Part shown: in pieces, positions 2,364 to 24,040 of the stretch
Numbering within the stretch: position 1 is the stretch's first letter
Layout of the letters: each line of letters opens with the position of its first letter
Origin: an uncultured Flavobacteriaceae bacterium
GTDB lineage: Bacteria > Bacteroidota > Bacteroidia > Flavobacteriales > Flavobacteriaceae
NCBI GenBank assembly: GCA_937923515.1
Contig: CALDUF010000012.1
Coordinates: 1-64,000 of the forward strand
Direction of reading: 5' to 3'
Length of the DNA: 64,000 nt
Position numbers and translations under genes: made by a program
Notes under the pieces: model-generated
Database searches by the model: none
Told to the model about the DNA's origin: nothing
The model's input: only the letters and a program-made list of their open reading frames with translations

Positions 2364-2496
2364 AATATATTTATTTAAAAAATTTTTAATTCATTTTAAT
2401 TACACAAACTTAGTCAAAAAAAAACCCAAAGCTTACAACTCAACAATTTGTTTTCCCTATAATGGCATCAATTGGTTTTATTTAAAATTTTAATTT

Positions 2497-2590
2497 GGGC
2501 GCAACCGCAAGGGTCGGGCTATCCGTTACAAGTCCTCGCACCTCCTTCGTCGGGCTGTGGGCTTTCCACTACTATCCCTTGCGCGGGTGT
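2497..2590 (-). repeat. Interspersed intergenic repeat, copy R1
   Basis: Minus strand CCCGCGCAAGGGATAGTAGTGG...AACGGATAGCCCGACCCTTGCGGTTGCGCCCAAA; ends match R2-R4; GCGCAA/TTGCGC terminal stem. Confidence 0.8.
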
Positions 2591-9940: not shown

Positions 9941-10058
9941 AATAAAGAGTTTGCATTTGATGTATTTAAAAATAGTGCAAATTCTTTATTTAGATTCTCG
10001 ATGTATCGGGAATGACAATTACAACGGAAACCTTGAAGCAAATACTTCAAGGAATTTT
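9941..10058 (+). promoter_or_regulatory. Structured rpsP 5' leader (15-bp hairpin plus terminator-like hairpin)
   Basis: AATAAAGAGTTTGCA (9941-9955) pairs with TGCAAATTCTTTATT (9976-9990), one G-U; CCTTGAAG caaata CTTCAAGG (10031-10052) followed by AATTTTTTT. Confidence 0.5.
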
Positions 10059-10103
10059 TTTCAATTAATAACCGAGGTCGAGAACCTCAAATAATTAATT
10101 ATT

Positions 10104-10607
10104 ATGCCAGTAAAAATTAGATTACAAAGACACGGTAAAAAAGGAAAACCTTTTTATTGGATCGTAGCAGCAGATTCGCGATCAAAAAGAGATGGTAAAT
10201 ACTTAGAAAAATTAGGTGCTTACAATCCAAACACAAATCCAGCAATTGTAGAATTAGACGTTGATGGTGCTGTAAAATGGTTGCAAAATGGTGCACAACC
10301 AACTGATACTGCAAAAAACTTATTATCTTACAAAGGTGCTTTATTAAAAAATCATCTTGTAGGTGGTGTTAGAAAAGGCGCTTTAACTGAAGAGCAAGCA
10401 GAAGCTAAATTTACTGCTTGGTTAGAAGAAAAAGAAGCAAAAATTCAAGCTAAAGCTGATGGGTTATCTGAAGCTGAAGCTAAGGCTAAAGCTGATGCGT
10501 TAGCTGCTGAAAGAGCTGTAAACGAAGCTAGAATAGCTGCCGCTGCTCCTGTTGTTGAAGAAGCAGAAGCGCCTGGTGAAGCTGAAGCTTCTAACGAAGA
10601 AGAATAA
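10104..10607 (+). CDS. rpsP: 30S ribosomal protein S16 with Ala/Glu-rich C-terminal extension
   Basis: MPVKIRLQRHGKKGKPFYWIVAADSRSKRDGKYLEKLGAYNP. Confidence 0.97.
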   Translation: MPVKIRLQRHGKKGKPFYWIVAADSRSKRDGKYLEKLGAYNPNTNPAIVELDVDGAVKWLQNGAQPTDTAKNLLSYKGALLKNHLVGGVRKGALTEEQAEAKFTAWLEEKEAKIQAKADGLSEAEAKAKADALAAERAVNEARIAAAAPVVEEAEAPGEAEASNEEE

Positions 10608-10630
10608 AAAAAGAATTTTTATACTTTTAA

Positions 10631-10658
10631 ACTCCGATAGCAATATCGGAGTTTTTTT
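10631..10658 (+). terminator. Rho-independent terminator of rpsP
   Basis: ACTCCGATA gcaa TATCGGAGT TTTTTT. Confidence 0.75.
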
Positions 10659-10850
10659 GTGAAATAGTATTTTGGTTTCTAAATACGTAATTGCACAAAT
10701 ATGCCTTAAGATGAGAACCTTAATTAAATAATTAATAAGTAGTCCTTGAAACTTGCTGATTTTGGAACTGGGTGACAAACTTAAAAATAGATTTGCGCCC
10801 CTTCCTAACAACAGGCAGATTCTAGGGAATAACAAAAGAATACGTTTTCT

Positions 10851-11375
10851 ATGACAAAAGAAGATTGTTTTTACTTAGGAAAGATTGTAAAAAAATATAG
10901 TTTTAAAGGCGAAGTTTTAGCAAAACTAGATACAGATCAGCCAGAACTTTATGAAAATCTTGATGCTATTTTTTTAGAACTGCGTAATAATCTAGTACCG
11001 TTTTTTGTTGAACGTTCGCAATTACACAAATCTGAATTACTTCGTATAAAATTTGAAGATGTAGATGCCGAAGCTGATGCTGATGCCATCATGAAAAGCG
11101 GCCTATATTTACCTTTGGATTTATTACCAAAGCTTGAGGGTAACAAATTTTACTTTCATGAAGTTATAGGCTTTACTATAAAAGACAAAAATTTTGGAAA
11201 CGTAGGAATTATTAAAGCGATTAACGATACCACAGCCCAATCGCTTTTTGAAATAGATAGAGATGGTATTGAAATTTTAATCCCTATGAACGATGAGTTT
11301 ATTATTAAAGTAGATAGAGACACCAAAACTATTCTTGTTGAAACGCCAGATGGTTTAATAGATTTGTACTTGTAA
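10851..11375 (+). CDS. rimM: ribosome maturation factor RimM
   Basis: FYLGKIVKKYSFKGEVLAKLDTD...ILIPMNDEFIIKVD; follows rpsP. Confidence 0.93.
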   Translation: MTKEDCFYLGKIVKKYSFKGEVLAKLDTDQPELYENLDAIFLELRNNLVPFFVERSQLHKSELLRIKFEDVDAEADADAIMKSGLYLPLDLLPKLEGNKFYFHEVIGFTIKDKNFGNVGIIKAINDTTAQSLFEIDRDGIEILIPMNDEFIIKVDRDTKTILVETPDGLIDLYL

Positions 11376-11406
11376 CATGAGTTTTTTTCTATCAAAAACT
11401 TATAAA

Positions 11407-11859
11407 CTACGCTACCAATTCTCCCCTTGTTTTAATAACACCAATAGATGCTTGGATATCATCTTTTTGAGCTATTAAAAGTTTACAAACAGATAATGGC
11501 AAGTGCCTTTCTTGCAACAATGCATTACAAGCCTTAATATTTAGTTCTTTAATTTTACATAACTCTATTATTACGTAACTGCTATCCTCAATATTATTTA
11601 ATGCGCGTTTAAAACGAAAATGCGTAGCATTGAGTTTAATATTTTGCTTTCGATAACTAGCTGGCGTGCCTCCAAATTTAACAATCTCCGCTTTTAAGGC
11701 GGTATTAAACTTTCGGTTACTTGCTATGGCTTCTTTAAGGATAACTTCAAGATTATCAACTTTTATGGTAGCTAAAACTTTAAAATATATTTGCTCAACC
11801 TCAAGAGAAAAAAGTAAGAGCGTATTCATGTGTTCTAAATTATTCTCCAAGTGTTTCAT
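11407..11859 (-). CDS. divergent PA2169/DUF2383-like four-helix-bundle protein
   Basis: 150 aa, same length and layout as the 8176 protein, including LLQERHLPLSVCKLLIAQKDDIQASI vs ILKDKTLPPTIDAMLFRHRNAIQSAI. Confidence 0.6.
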   Translation of the reverse strand: MKHLENNLEHMNTLLLFSLEVEQIYFKVLATIKVDNLEVILKEAIASNRKFNTALKAEIVKFGGTPASYRKQNIKLNATHFRFKRALNNIEDSSYVIIELCKIKELNIKACNALLQERHLPLSVCKLLIAQKDDIQASIGVIKTRGELVA

Positions 11860-14521: not shown

Positions 14522-14530
14522 TATGCTTTT

Positions 14531-14683
14531 GCGTTAGCGATAGCAACGGCATCCTTTTTTGATAAACTGTATTTTGTTTAGAATGCTATAGTATACCTAT
14601 ATTAAAAAGGCTTCTGAATATTAACACTTTAAAACATCAAAAAAGATATAGTGGATAGCGCGACCCTTGTGGTAACGCCCAAA
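14531..14683 (+). repeat. Interspersed intergenic repeat, copy R2
   Basis: GCGTTAGCGATAGCAACGGCATCCTTTTTT...AAAAAAGATATAGTGGATAGCGCGACCCTTGTGGTAACGCCCAAA; GCGTTA/TAACGC terminal stem. Confidence 0.8.
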
Positions 14684-14710
14684 TACTTATACATTTTTTA
14701 AAACCATATA

Positions 14711-15754
14711 ATGAAATATATATATTTTGTTGCACTTTTTTACGTTGCAACCTTATCAACTTTTGCTCAACACGAGCATGACAACAACGACAACGCATTA
14801 GAATTAAAACAATGGTCGTCTAGCAGGCCTGATGGGCATGCGCCAATAGGTGTTATGGGAGACCACACGCACCACAAAGGCGGTTTGATGTTCTCGTACC
14901 GCTACATGACTATGGATATGCGCCAATTGAGACAAGGCACTAACGATGTGACTACTGCTGATGCTCACGCCAACTACATGGTTGCACCGCTAGATATGGT
15001 AATGCATATGCACATGCTTGGCGCCATGTATGCGCCTTCGGATAGAATTACTATTATGGCCATGGCAAATTACGTAGAAAACGATATGAATTTGCAAATG
15101 CGTAATGGCAATAGGTTTTCTACCAACACCTCTGGCTTTGGAGATGTTATGGTGAGCGCCTTATACAGTATTTTTAATAAAAATAGAAAAGCAATGCACG
15201 CACAAATTGGTGTAAATATACCAACAGGAAGCATTGAAGAAACAGGCGTGCTACCAGTATCTATGGGAAATGCAGTGCAGTTGCCTTACCCAATGCAAAC
15301 AGGTACAGGTTCGTTTGGTGCTAAATTAGGATTAACGTATTTAGGACAGTGCAATACATTTTCGTGGGGACACCAATTGACAGGATTGGTTAATTTAAAC
15401 GATAATAGTCAAGATTATAAATTTGGAAACAGATACCAACTTAACAATTGGATTGCTGCAAAAGCTGGTGATAATTTAAGTGTTTCTGTAAGATTAGAAG
15501 GTGTGGTTGTTACTGAAATTGATGGTGCTAGCCCACTATTAAACCCTGTAATGGTGACTACTGCCGATACTGCAAACTCTGGTGGTACTTTTATAAATAC
15601 TGGTTTTGGTTTGAATTATTTTATTATAAATGGCAGTTTAAAAGGGTTACGTTTTGCAACTGAAATTTCTACGCCTTTGTATCAAGATTTAAATGGCGTG
15701 CAATTAAAACAGAATTATAATTTGATGTTTGGTTTGCAATATGCGCTACATTAA
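14711..15754 (+). CDS. His/Met-rich outer-membrane transporter-like protein (possibly copper/metal-related)
   Basis: Signal peptide, QHEHDNND, GDHTHHKGG, YRYMTMDMRQL, MVMHMHMLGAMYAPSDRITIMAM; beta-barrel-like C-terminus. Confidence 0.6.
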   Translation: MKYIYFVALFYVATLSTFAQHEHDNNDNALELKQWSSSRPDGHAPIGVMGDHTHHKGGLMFSYRYMTMDMRQLRQGTNDVTTADAHANYMVAPLDMVMHMHMLGAMYAPSDRITIMAMANYVENDMNLQMRNGNRFSTNTSGFGDVMVSALYSIFNKNRKAMHAQIGVNIPTGSIEETGVLPVSMGNAVQLPYPMQTGTGSFGAKLGLTYLGQCNTFSWGHQLTGLVNLNDNSQDYKFGNRYQLNNWIAAKAGDNLSVSVRLEGVVVTEIDGASPLLNPVMVTTADTANSGGTFINTGFGLNYFIINGSLKGLRFATEISTPLYQDLNGVQLKQNYNLMFGLQYALH

Positions 15755-15786
15755 ATAGTTTTTAATTTTAAATTGCTCTAAGTACT

Positions 15787-15816
15787 AAAAAAGCATCTCT
15801 TTTGAGGTGCTTTTTT
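15787..15816 (+). terminator. Rho-independent terminator
   Basis: AAAAAAGCATCTC tttt GAGGTGCTTTTTT. Confidence 0.65.
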
Positions 15817-15852
15817 ATGCTCAACTGTTAAAGTTGTATCTTTAAAATAAAA

Positions 15853-16596
15853 ATGGCCATTACTAAAGCACTCAATATTTTAGCATTTGGAGTTGTTCTG
15901 TTTTGTTGTACTTCGAATACTGAAGACATTACAACTAAACTTGAAGACATCCAAGAGCAAGAAGACACTAACACGTTTAAAAACGACACACTAAAAATAA
16001 TAGCACTTGGGGATAGTTACACCATTGGTGAAAGCGTATGCAGTAGCTGTAAATTTCCTGAGCAACTTAAAGATAGTATTGTAAATATAATTAGCGATGC
16101 AACTATTGAACTTACTGTTATTGCAAAAACTGGTTGGACTACTTCTGCACTTAAAAATGCGCTAGAAGCTGAAACACTGGCTGAAGATTATGATATCGCC
16201 ACTTTGCTTATTGGCGTTAATAACCAATTTCAACGTAGGCCTTTTGAATTGTTTGAAAAGGAATTTCCAGAATTAGTAACCAAAGCTGTAACCTATGCTG
16301 GCGGTAAAGCAAAAAACCTAATTGTTATTTCTATTCCAGACTATGCGTTTACGCCTTTTGGTAATGGCAATTTAAACATATCAAATGGTATTAATACGTA
16401 CAACACCTTTATAAAAAACTATTGCGATGCTAATAACATTACATACGTTTTTATTACAGATATTACCCGACAAGGTATAGAAAATCCCAGCTTAGTAGCT
16501 AACGATGGGTTGCACCCTTCTACTTTGGCATACTCAAAATTTGTGAGTAGACTTTTGCCAGAGGCTTTGGAAAAAATAGGATATAATACTGACTAA
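15853..16596 (+). CDS. SGNH/GDSL hydrolase family lipoprotein
   Basis: Lipobox-like VLFCCTS; IIALGDSYTIGES (block I GDS), LIGVNNQ, DGLHPSTLAYSKF (D-x-x-H). Confidence 0.88.
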   Translation: MAITKALNILAFGVVLFCCTSNTEDITTKLEDIQEQEDTNTFKNDTLKIIALGDSYTIGESVCSSCKFPEQLKDSIVNIISDATIELTVIAKTGWTTSALKNALEAETLAEDYDIATLLIGVNNQFQRRPFELFEKEFPELVTKAVTYAGGKAKNLIVISIPDYAFTPFGNGNLNISNGINTYNTFIKNYCDANNITYVFITDITRQGIENPSLVANDGLHPSTLAYSKFVSRLLPEALEKIGYNTD

Positions 16597-16627
16597 ATTA
16601 CCTATATTAGCCTAAAGCCATGTAAGC

Positions 16628-17527
16628 ATGTTTTCTTCTAAAAAACGACTAGACCACGCCTATAATACTGCTAAGATTGTTGACTTTAACGACGATAGCA
16701 AGTTTATACTTTTTAGTGATTGCCACAGAGGCGATAATAGTTTTGCAGATGATTTTGCGAACAATCGTAATATCTATTTTCATGCGCTAAAGCATTATTA
16801 TGCTGAAGGGTTTCAATATTGTGAATTAGGTGATGGTGATGAGTTATGGGAAAACCTCTCATTTAGTTCGCTATTATACGCACACAAAAACGTATACATG
16901 CTTATGAAGCTATTTCATGAGGATAAACGTTTACATATGATTTGGGGTAATCATGATATGGTATATCGCAATCCAGAGTATGTAAAAAAATATTTAGCTA
17001 CATATTTTGATCCTAAAATTGGGGAAGATGTTGAGCTTTTTAAAGATATTACTTATCATGAAGGCATTGTGTTAAAGCATAGCACTACAGGGCAAGAGTT
17101 ATTTTTAACGCACGGGCACCAGGCAGATTGGTGGAATTATTTATTTTGGAAATGGAGCCGATTTATGGTGCGTGTGCTTTGGAAACCTTTAAACGTTATG
17201 GGAATTGCAGATCCTACGAGTCCTGCAAAAAACTATACCGAATTAATTAAAGTTGAGCGCCGTACCAAAAAATGGATTGCTGCTAAAAACAACTTACTTA
17301 CTATTGCGGGCCACACCCACAGGCCACGTTTTCCTGAGCCTGGAGATATTCCGTTTTTTAACGATGGTAGTTGCGTACACCCTAGAAGTATTACTGGTAT
17401 TGAGATTGAAAATGGTGCCATTTCATTAATTAAATGGCAAATAGCTACGCGCGATGATGGCACGTTACAAATTGTTAGAGTGTTGTTGGAAGGCCCGAGA
17501 CGATTAGAAGCTTATAAAACGCTATAA
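16628..17527 (+). CDS. metallophosphoesterase (UDP-2,3-diacylglucosamine hydrolase-like)
   Basis: ILFSDCHRGDN, GDGDELWE, WGNHD, LTHGHQADW, IAGHTHRPRFPE. Confidence 0.88.
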   Translation: MFSSKKRLDHAYNTAKIVDFNDDSKFILFSDCHRGDNSFADDFANNRNIYFHALKHYYAEGFQYCELGDGDELWENLSFSSLLYAHKNVYMLMKLFHEDKRLHMIWGNHDMVYRNPEYVKKYLATYFDPKIGEDVELFKDITYHEGIVLKHSTTGQELFLTHGHQADWWNYLFWKWSRFMVRVLWKPLNVMGIADPTSPAKNYTELIKVERRTKKWIAAKNNLLTIAGHTHRPRFPEPGDIPFFNDGSCVHPRSITGIEIENGAISLIKWQIATRDDGTLQIVRVLLEGPRRLEAYKTL

Positions 17528-17571
17528 TTTATATTTACTAATTAATTCTTGCCGTTGCTAGAATGACAGAT

Positions 17572-18366
17572 ATGCTCCAAAAACGATACGAAGGCTATTT
17601 AAAAACACCTTTTTTATGGAAAAATGATGTTGTTTTCAATTTATTGCAATTTAATAATGTTGCGGCAGTTTCTAAATTTGATGTTGAAATTGACGACAGC
17701 TTACGTTTAGGAAAATACGTAGAGCGTTTTGTTGCTTTTGAATTACGCCAACAAAAACACATTCGTGTGTTGGCCGAAAATATACAGATACAGCAGGATA
17801 CACTAACTTTGGGTGAGTTGGATTGCTTACTTCTACAAGATGAACAGCCCATTCATTTAGAAATTATATATAAGTTTTACCTATATGATGCTCTAGTTGG
17901 TACTTCTGAAATTGAGCATTTTGTTGGCCCTAATAGAAAGGATGCTTTAATTGAAAAACTAAGCAAACTTAAACACAAACAATTACCGCTTATTTATACT
18001 GATGCCTGTAAACCTTATTTAAAAGCTTTAGGCTTAGCGCCTGAAACCATTTTGCAACAGGTGTATTTTAAGGCACAACTATTTTTGCCATTTGCCAATC
18101 AAAATATACAGTTAAAAACATTAAATAATGATTGTGTTGTTGGCTATTATATTACCAGAACTGAACTTATCGTGTTTAAAGACTGTAAATTTTATGTTCC
18201 TACAAAAAAAGATTGGTTGATAACGCCGCATACTAATGTAGATTGGTTGAATTTTAAAACGTTTACAGCCATTGCGAGAGCCTATTTTGAACAAAAATAT
18301 TCTACTTTAATTTGGGTAAAGCTTAAAACCGGTATGGTAAAAAAGGTGTTTTTGGTTTGGTGGTAA
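17572..18366 (+). CDS. DUF1853 family protein
   Basis: RLGKYVERFVAFEL...TLGELDCLLL...PIHLEIIYKFYLYD; GPNRKDALIEKLSKLKHKQLPL. The listed start at 17563 falls in a palindromic repeat. Confidence 0.75.
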   Translation: MLQKRYEGYLKTPFLWKNDVVFNLLQFNNVAAVSKFDVEIDDSLRLGKYVERFVAFELRQQKHIRVLAENIQIQQDTLTLGELDCLLLQDEQPIHLEIIYKFYLYDALVGTSEIEHFVGPNRKDALIEKLSKLKHKQLPLIYTDACKPYLKALGLAPETILQQVYFKAQLFLPFANQNIQLKTLNNDCVVGYYITRTELIVFKDCKFYVPTKKDWLITPHTNVDWLNFKTFTAIARAYFEQKYSTLIWVKLKTGMVKKVFLVWW

Positions 18367-18380
18367 GCTAGCAAATACGC

Positions 18381-18585
18381 CCGCGTTAGGGATTGAAGCG
18401 GCATCCTTTTTAAAACTTGAAAAGGACAAGTGCATTAAACTCTTAATTTTTGGGAATTGGTAGGTTATAAACTTCTAGAAATAACGGAATTTTAAAAAGA
18501 TATAGCGGAAAGCCCGACCACGCTTTGAGCACCTAAGTTTGCTAGTTTAAAGCGTTTTTAGCTTAAAAGCGTGGTAACGCCCAAA
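18381..18585 (+). repeat. Interspersed intergenic repeat, copy R3 (expanded tip)
   Basis: CCGCGTTAGGGATTGAAGCGGCATCCTTTTT...AAAAAGATATAGCGGAAAGCCCGACCACGCTTT...AAAGCGTGGTAACGCCCAAA. Confidence 0.8.
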
Positions 18586-22874: not shown

Positions 22875-22987
22875 CCCGCGTGAGGTATAGAGGCATTTGT
22901 TGAAGCTCTTTTTGTGTTGTTGCACCTATGCAACACAAAAAAGCGACTGCCGAAAGCCCGACTTGAGGTACGAGAGGCACGCCATAA
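22875..22987 (+). repeat. Interspersed intergenic repeat, copy R4
   Basis: CCCGCGTGAGGTATAGAGGCATTTGTTGAAGCTCTTTTTGTGTTG...CAACACAAAAAAGCGACTGCCGAAAGCCCGACTTGAGG...GAGGCACGCC; 11-bp internal stem 22909-22919/22931-22941. Confidence 0.75.
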
Positions 22988-22993
22988 TTGCTT

Positions 22994-24040
22994 ATGAAAA
23001 AACGAATATTAGTTGCACCGTTAAATTGGGGATTGGGTCATGCCACGAGATGCATACCTATTATTAAAGCATTATATGCTAATGGTTTTGAACCAATTAT
23101 TGCTAGTGATGGTATTGCGTTAACATTGTTACAAAAGGAGTTTCCTGAGTTTTCTTCGATTGAATTACCGTCTTATAACATTAGTTACTCTAAAAAGGGA
23201 ACATATTTTAAATTAAAATTAATTAAAGATTCTCCTAAGTTGTTGAAGACAATTAAGGATGAAAAAAAAGCAATAACGCAAATTGTTGAAACGCATAATA
23301 TTGCAGGCATTATTTCTGATAACAGGCTGGGTGCTTATTGTAATAGCGTGCCTAGTGTGTTTATTACGCATCAATTACACGTTTTAAGTGGCAGCACAAC
23401 TTGGTTAAGCACTAAGTTGCATGACACGTACATATCGCGTTTTGATGAATGTTGGGTGCCAGATGCCAAGGGCGATTTGAATTTATCGGGTAAATTGGCG
23501 CATAAAAAACGCCTTAGTATTACTACCAAATATATTGGCCCTATAAGTAGGTTTACAAAAACTGAAACGAATGAAACTATTGATTTGCTCGTTTTACTTT
23601 CTGGCCCAGAACCACAACGGTCTTTACTAGAAGATATGTTAATTAAAGCAATAAAAAACTTTGTGGGTAATGTGGTTTTTGTAAGAGGTATTCCTGAGAA
23701 GGAGCAAAATATAGAGCAAAGTGATAACGTTACGTTTTTTAATTTTATGACTTCTAGCCGTCTTGAACAGACTATTAACAACAGTAAGTTGGTACTATCG
23801 CGCTCTGGTTACACCACTATCATGGATTTAGCAAAACTAGAAAAGAAAGCTTTTTTTATTCCAACACCTGGACAAACCGAACAAGAATATTTGGCAAAAC
23901 GACTTACCAACCAAGGTTTTGCACCTAGTTGCAAACAAGATGAATTTAGTATTTTTCTTTTGGACAAGATCTCAGAGTACAAGGGATTAAAAAGCTTTAA
24001 TACACAAGTTAATTACACTGCTTTATTTAGCCTTTTCTAA
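22994..24040 (+). CDS. GT28/MurG-like glycosyltransferase
   Basis: KRILVAPLNWGLGHATRCIPIIKAL; LVLSRSGYTTIMDLAKLEKKAFFIPTPGQTEQEYLAKRL. Confidence 0.8.
   Translation: MKKRILVAPLNWGLGHATRCIPIIKALYANGFEPIIASDGIALTLLQKEFPEFSSIELPSYNISYSKKGTYFKLKLIKDSPKLLKTIKDEKKAITQIVETHNIAGIISDNRLGAYCNSVPSVFITHQLHVLSGSTTWLSTKLHDTYISRFDECWVPDAKGDLNLSGKLAHKKRLSITTKYIGPISRFTKTETNETIDLLVLLSGPEPQRSLLEDMLIKAIKNFVGNVVFVRGIPEKEQNIEQSDNVTFFNFMTSSRLEQTINNSKLVLSRSGYTTIMDLAKLEKKAFFIPTPGQTEQEYLAKRLTNQGFAPSCKQDEFSIFLLDKISEYKGLKSFNTQVNYTALFSLF

Follow-up and report, generated by a model that had tools for sequence, protein, structure and literature searches.

Flavo-1 repeats of a Flavobacteriaceae genome have a predicted three-way-junction fold, differ in one arm at orthologous sites and may be mobile elements

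Introduction

What kind of small intergenic repeat keeps its ends paired while the letters on both sides of the pairing change? The question is raised by the window, the whole stretch of 64,000 nucleotides analysed here (contig CALDUF010000012.1, from an uncultured Flavobacteriaceae bacterium), in which a first-pass annotation had placed four copies (R1 to R4) of a repeat with shared ends, mentioned similar repeats in other flavobacterial genomes and named no assigned function. All four copies were found in the places given, and the genome-wide family to which they lead is strong evidence that they exceed chance. That family had gone unrecognised in the annotation: it is catalogued as Flavo-1 RNA (Rfam RF01705), a candidate RNA without a function since 2010 (Weinberg et al. 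2010, PMC2864571). In a literature search conducted mostly without subscription papers, no function for Flavo-1 was found, so that this part of the annotation stands, and a text search with the motif letters gave chance matches only. Within the same scope, the family is already known, and its full architecture, its occurrence in phages and the exchange of its arms appear to be new. The overall pattern described below favours a small mobile element over a gene switch.

Results

Membership of the window copies in Flavo-1

The window contains two RF01705 matches above the gathering score of 42 bits, at 14526-14669 (R2, 49.5 bits) and 18374-18523 (R3, 48.4 bits), and these two copies are Flavo-1 by the Rfam test. 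In the whole-genome search, R1 was recovered as a match of 35.1 bits, below gathering, and R4, which has a different kind of inner arm, for that reason gave no match at E≤0.001. R1 is counted as a member on its sub-threshold score and the common architecture, and R4 solely on architecture and the history of its site. The shared ends are weak evidence by themselves: a scan of the window with the right-end pattern, allowing two mismatches at most, returned the four copies plus two sites with two mismatches, against ~2.8 expected by chance. Single-sequence RNA folding was also weak alone (z-scores of +0.3, -2.1, -1.6 and -1.4 for R1 to R4), and the case rests on covariation. None of the four copies overlaps an open reading frame (ORF) of at least 80 aa.

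Architecture and covariation of the element

Reading and aligning the copies together with their flanks revealed that the element extends beyond the Rfam model, whose 76 positions stop at the start of P3 and include neither the closing stem P1 nor P3. The best Rfam matches, termed type I, have the ends UUUAGCCCYG..CRGGAAAUAGCU and lack P1 and P3. The kind found in the window, type II, is a non-coding element of 80-200 nt that runs, from 5' to 3', through a left extension (in this genus often TTAGCNRATANRCCC; other copies have a run of T), P1 (GCGUUA), the P2 base (GGG), AUUGNAGYG, the apical P2 with its tip, RYGKAAAG, CCC, GA, P3 with its tip, P1 (UAACGC), CC and AAA. As read from the aligned copies, the full type II element is predicted to be a three-way junction in which P1 and P2 meet without a linker and P2 and P3 are joined by the GA linker. 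The P2 arm is long, with a conserved non-canonical internal loop and a hypervariable tip; the P3 tip is hypervariable too, and tips carry unrelated sequence, at times other repeats. P2 arms fall into discrete classes, namely A (CATCCTTTT..AAAAGATATA), B (AAAGCCCACAGC..GCGAGGACTTG), C (TAGCTTTTGG..CCAAAACT), D (AAATCC..GATTG), E (GAGGCATTTGTTGAAGCTC..GAGCGACTGCC, the class of R4) and F (GGCGAGTAT..TTTGAGCC, in phages).

Covariation was assessed in a core alignment of 55 genomic copies, built on sequence anchors with the tips cut and short linkers inserted (nine rows were parsed by hand), and shuffles and slid partners served as controls. In this alignment 93.2% of the 935 cells pair. Both sides have changed in 12 of the 17 core pairs (6.5 in shuffles) and in 80 individual cells (24 in shuffles), and the covariation score was 0.275, whereas shuffles scored 0.104 and slid partners no more than 0.065. 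Since every aligned copy except R4 had been picked by the Rfam model, which contains neither P1 nor P3, these two stems are a largely independent test. P1 occurs as GCGTTA:TAACGC, GCGCAA:TTGCGC, GCGCTA:TAGCGC, GCATTA:GAATGC, GCGTGA:GCACGC and GGGTTA:TAACCC, with 605 Watson-Crick pairs, 5 G.U and 1 A.C; the P2 base occurs as GGG:CCC, GCG:CGC, AGG:CCT and GTG:CAC, also almost without G.U. The unpaired or non-canonical positions AUNG, AWAG and the GA linker are nearly invariant. The claim that both sides of the stem changed together, made from four copies, is therefore borne out in many, and species compared at a single site show joint changes as well. Both results support the suggestion that a folded RNA or single-stranded DNA (ssDNA) is selected for or is the form in which the repeat propagates.

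The terminal stems of the window copies read as had been claimed. R1 (2494-2587, minus strand; core 2584-2499) has a class B arm; its P1 5' strand GCGCAA (2579-2584) pairs with TTGCGC (2499-2504), and its P3 (CCCTTGCGG) lies at 2505-2513. The other three copies are on the plus strand. R2 (14531-14683), flanked by two co-directional ORFs, has a class A arm with a long tip; P1 is formed by GCGTTA (14531-14536) and TAACGC (14673-14678), the P2 base by GCG (14537-14539) and CGC (14659-14661), and P3 (CCCTTGTGG) occupies 14664-14672. R3 (18381-18585), between convergent ORFs, also has a class A arm with a long tip, P1 strands at 18383-18388 (GCGTTA) and 18575-18580 (TAACGC), and a long P3, a hairpin of 57 nt (CCACGC...GCGTGG) at 18518-18574; its left extension (AAGCTAGCAAATACGCCC, 18365-18382) is a semi-conserved TTAGCNRATANRCCC-like segment of the kind found upstream of many copies in the genus. 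R4 (22875-22983) lies in the 5' leader of a glycosyltransferase-like gene (22994-24040). Its P1 5' strand GCGTGA (22878-22883) pairs with GCACGC (22977-22982), the claimed stem GCGTG/CACGC being formed by 22878-22882 and 22978-22982, and its P3 (CTTGAGGTACGAGAG, 22962-22976) is identical in the congener G133. R4 has GGTATAG in place of the claimed GGGATNG, and one additional C after P1. What had been described as a variable middle is variable in its tips and otherwise consists of the two arms P2 and P3 with conserved bases, the middle of R4 being another arm class.

Distribution in chromosomes and phages

With the Rfam model, 60 matches at E≤0.001 were counted in this genome (2.71 Mb, 136 contigs), which is a lower bound because the model misses class E. 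Matches occur in 98 of 151 sampled Flavobacteriaceae genomes and in 0 of 14 control genomes, consistent with a restriction of Flavo-1 mainly to Bacteroidota; the mention of similar repeats in other flavobacterial genomes was thus correct. Among genera of the family, matches per genome range from 0 to at least 29. A consensus query gave no match in plasmids.

A blast search of 50,697 phage records with the type II consensus returned four, all of them ssDNA phages (one microvirus and three isolates of an inovirus). Querying with the microvirus copy led to further microviruses, later searches added more, and when IMG/VR was scanned with patterns, both tailed phages and microviruses proved to carry copies. 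The phage elements have the same architecture as chromosomal type II, their P1 stems covary (GGCTTA:TAAGCC, GCGTCA:GGACGC, GTGTTA:GAACAC, GCGTGA:GCACGC), and they lie on either strand of microvirus genomes. Class F looks confined to phages, since two exact patterns, which miss variants, had 0 matches in 84,980 prokaryote genomes; its carriers are mostly microviruses, and two exceed microvirus length (MT836100, 18.9 kb; the contig of L269, 42 kb). Like R4, a checked class F microvirus copy (L120) is not reported by the Rfam model. Related microviruses with homologous flanks carry P2 class F in two cases and a class D-like arm in a third. Empty sites were sought among relatives of the phage carriers: IMG/VR offered too few relatives, and the sole informative pair of the phage collection was mar62/mar63, in which mar62 lacks what mar63 has and which is informative for the right end only.

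One microvirus lineage (alignment A1: L144, L150, L145, L146, L147, L148) has a promoter-like leader block of ~270 nt, with or without an intact element. Some of these viruses have the block downstream of the capsid gene, others upstream of the replication gene.

Turnover and arm exchange at orthologous sites

Orthologous sites were compared genome-wide with G133 and G155, which gave 15 type II sites with both flanks in common (one paralogous match was left out). The class of the P2 arm differs at six of the 15 (L008, L013, L028, L039, L055 and R4). A rare P1 occurs at four sites, and at three of them it is shared between the genomes compared (GGGTTA at L039/L278, GCATTA at L055/L320, GCGTGA at R4/L282); as the rare P1 is shared while the arm class differs, P1 was inherited at the site and the arm replaced. 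Double changes in place were found at L036/L310, L038/L308, L056/L303 and L013/L315. At L035, the element is inverted in G133 relative to the flanking genes, left extension included, and has the same arm class.

The sites of the window copies differ in their histories. The R2 site is occupied in this genome and in G154, G160, G159 and G156 (loci L154, L155, L156 and L159) and is empty of the element in G152 (L157); the P2 base there is GCG:CGC or GGG:CCC, the latter in G154 and G160, and the arm in G156 is of class C. At the R3 site, G133 has a different arm (L151), G152 a decayed remnant (L157) and the others no element. At the R4 site, 7 of 11 congeners, five of the 29 other genera in the panel and G069 have an intact element downstream of the promoter and ahead of the start codon, and two decayed copies were also found. 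P1 is mostly GCGTGA:GCACGC here, a version carried by two of the 55 copies in this genome, and the arms belong to several classes.

The same REP-like module (CGATCCTGCAAGGTTTTT..AACCTTGTAGGTATGAGCG) occupies the P3 tip of L024, L031, L040, L047 and L050, on different P2 classes, which suggests that P3 may also be exchanged. Other small palindromes (CCTGCCTACCGGCAGGCAGG type) have inserted into Flavo-1 at L154 (the R2 site of G154) and L196 (the R4 site of G153); the insertion in L154 falls in the P1 3' strand and breaks the stem. In six genera (L074, L077, L078, L086, L088, L089) a type I Flavo-1 occupies one and the same position, in antisense orientation immediately upstream of a gene with an N-terminus that, read by eye, resembles cysteine desulfurase (MFNVDDIRKDFP), and some type I copies are therefore very old.

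Discussion

A probable mobile element

Flavo-1 type II is most likely a mobile element, shared by Bacteroidota and their phages, that is non-autonomous and depends on a protein provided in trans, which would recognise its folded form; we put the probability of this at about one half. It is the best single account because it explains the patchy copy number, both orientations, the spread to phages, the turnover of sites, the inversion and the arm exchange. The element would insert between genes in either orientation and be retained for long periods; it can also turn around at its site and trade P2 arms with other copies. The results above establish the family, its architecture and covariation, the unbiased orientation, the presence in phages, the turnover of sites, the P2 exchange and one inversion at orthologous sites. 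We infer that a trans-acting enzyme would move it and that the substrate would be the folded strand, whether RNA or ssDNA. A more specific version is tentative and rather doubtful: that type II Flavo-1 is a distinct non-coding mobile element of Bacteroidota chromosomes and of tailed and ssDNA phages in which the unit of exchange is the folded arm, the three-way-junction core staying in place while a putative structure-specific enzyme swaps or flips P2, and one arm class being confined to phages, mostly microviruses.

Several results weigh against mobility. The strongest are the microvirus leaders and the R4 site, where copies are always sense and retained in several genera, which resembles a kept function more than a passing insertion; the copies in both settings could be domesticated ones with an RNA role. 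P1 is a 6-bp inverted repeat, and with relatives too diverged neither a target-site duplication, as expected of a miniature inverted-repeat element of a DDE transposase, nor a clean empty site could be defined. Within one genome the tips vary so much from copy to copy that no recent burst is obvious. A loss followed by an independent insertion could account for the one inversion, against which the common arm variant argues. Nor was an enzyme found among the candidate families: among the 22 genomes with at least 15 matches, Y1 transposase (PF01797) is absent from 10 and reverse transcriptase (RVT_1) from 14, including this one (87.6% complete), and neither family tracks the Flavo-1 copy number. 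An RNA borne by a retroelement (group II intron, retron or diversity-generating retroelement) was rejected on the same RVT_1 result.

Alternative explanations

Given the position of R4, the elements might instead be cis-acting RNAs, in mRNA leaders or at 3' ends, that tune the expression or stability of neighbouring genes. The sense placement between promoter and start codon of the glycosyltransferase-like gene, with its counterparts in congeners and other genera, agrees with this, as does the microvirus lineage in which the element follows the promoter-like leader, just before the next gene, the block having moved as a unit. G.U cells also outnumber A.C cells (28 vs 12; 31 vs 18 unfiltered), a weak sign of sense-strand folding that is partly biased by the ascertainment of copies. 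However, the genome-wide placement speaks otherwise. Flanking ORFs, called with a simple ORF caller after setting aside those overlapping an element, were mostly within 250 nt of the 61 genomic copies, and from these short distances the copies outside the window are taken to be intergenic, as was directly checked for the window copies. Among the 58 copies with both neighbours, orientation relative to the upstream and downstream gene was co/co in 21, anti/anti in 18, anti/co in 10 and co/anti in 9; the downstream gene is co-directional in 31 of 58 (p=0.69), and a consistent sense placement, as of a leader RNA, is seen only at special sites such as R4. Several microviruses have antisense copies, and in the published F. 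psychrophilum transcriptome Flavo-1 occurs in both orientations relative to transcripts and frequently outside any transcript (PMC9723704). Unbiased orientation makes a sense-only RNA role unlikely for the family as a whole, and the filing of Flavo-1 as a small RNA gene in Rfam is not supported by this placement. We therefore regard the cis-acting RNA as an unlikely explanation of the family. An intrinsic terminator was rejected: the conserved 3' flank is CC-AAA without a U tract, and gaps between convergent genes hold no excess of copies.

The freedom of orientation would also fit a DNA site that a replication or recombination protein of the host recognises in folded or cruciform shape, such as an ssDNA initiation site, serving chromosomes and ssDNA phages. 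That all four phage records of the first blast query were ssDNA phages, and that P1 and the P2 base are almost free of G.U, would agree. Nevertheless, many genera of the family have none, so the site is not essential; both strands of microvirus genomes are used; and the bias relative to replication in the one complete genome (G072), 28 copies against its direction and 17 with it, was not significant (p=0.14). We consider such a site improbable.

Another possible source of the joint stem changes is hairpin template switching or gene conversion. Flavo-1 would then be a set of old repeats altered by quasipalindrome correction and conversion, with no selection on the fold. The joint P1 changes with few intermediates would be expected of such a process, and L053 and G155 L320 have mismatched P2 bases (GGG with CGC), as at a conversion breakpoint. 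Against it, AUNG, AWAG and the GA linker have stayed nearly invariant while flanks and tips were randomised, and conversion over short homology leaves the in-place inversion and the spread to phages unexplained; we think this more improbable still. That Flavo-1 is a REP/RAYT-type repeat moved by a Y1 (TnpA-REP) transposase is very improbable: it is short, palindromic, intergenic and of high copy, but this genome has a single Y1 protein, whose gene stands between copies of a palindrome unlike Flavo-1 (AGACCTGACAGGTTT..AAACCTGTCAGGTCT), and Y1 proteins are missing from the 10 high-copy genomes mentioned above.

Comparison with known repeats

The type II element shares with RF01705 the P2 arm, the host group and the intergenic location. 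REP/REPIN repeats with RAYT are likewise small, palindromic, non-coding, intergenic, of high copy and patchy; Flavo-1 differs in its three-way junction, as opposed to paired REPs, and does not co-occur with Y1. BOX, ERIC and similar families are modular small repeats that form RNA or DNA structure and are probably non-autonomous mobile elements; their sequence and host group are unrelated to Flavo-1, and we know of no in-place arm exchange or phage-specific classes among them. The attC sites of integrons are recognised as a folded single strand, consist of one hairpin and border gene cassettes in arrays. They resemble Flavo-1 in a conserved base, a variable terminal structure and TTA/TAAC in the ends; an attC identity was rejected, since Flavo-1 is a three-way junction dispersed as single copies in both orientations.

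The architecture, the two orientations, the occurrence in ssDNA phages and the in-place arm exchange make Flavo-1 a testable case, for the protein that would recognise it and for its movement. An enzyme able to swap or flip folded DNA arms would, if it exists, represent a new recombination activity; if there is no such enzyme, the elements document cleanly how hairpins evolve in concert in nature.

Minor observations

At L060 (G000:C24, ~9980-11470), a 493-aa ORF encodes the single Y1 domain protein of this genome, which continues in frame into a sequence resembling, by eye, HemF (coproporphyrinogen oxidase). In the window, a known element, the Rfam S16-Flavobacteria ribosomal protein leader, is located at 10064-10099 on the plus strand, upstream of the ORF at 10104-10607, and close to the 3' end of that ORF lies a 36-nt tandem duplication with 78% identity (10434-10505).

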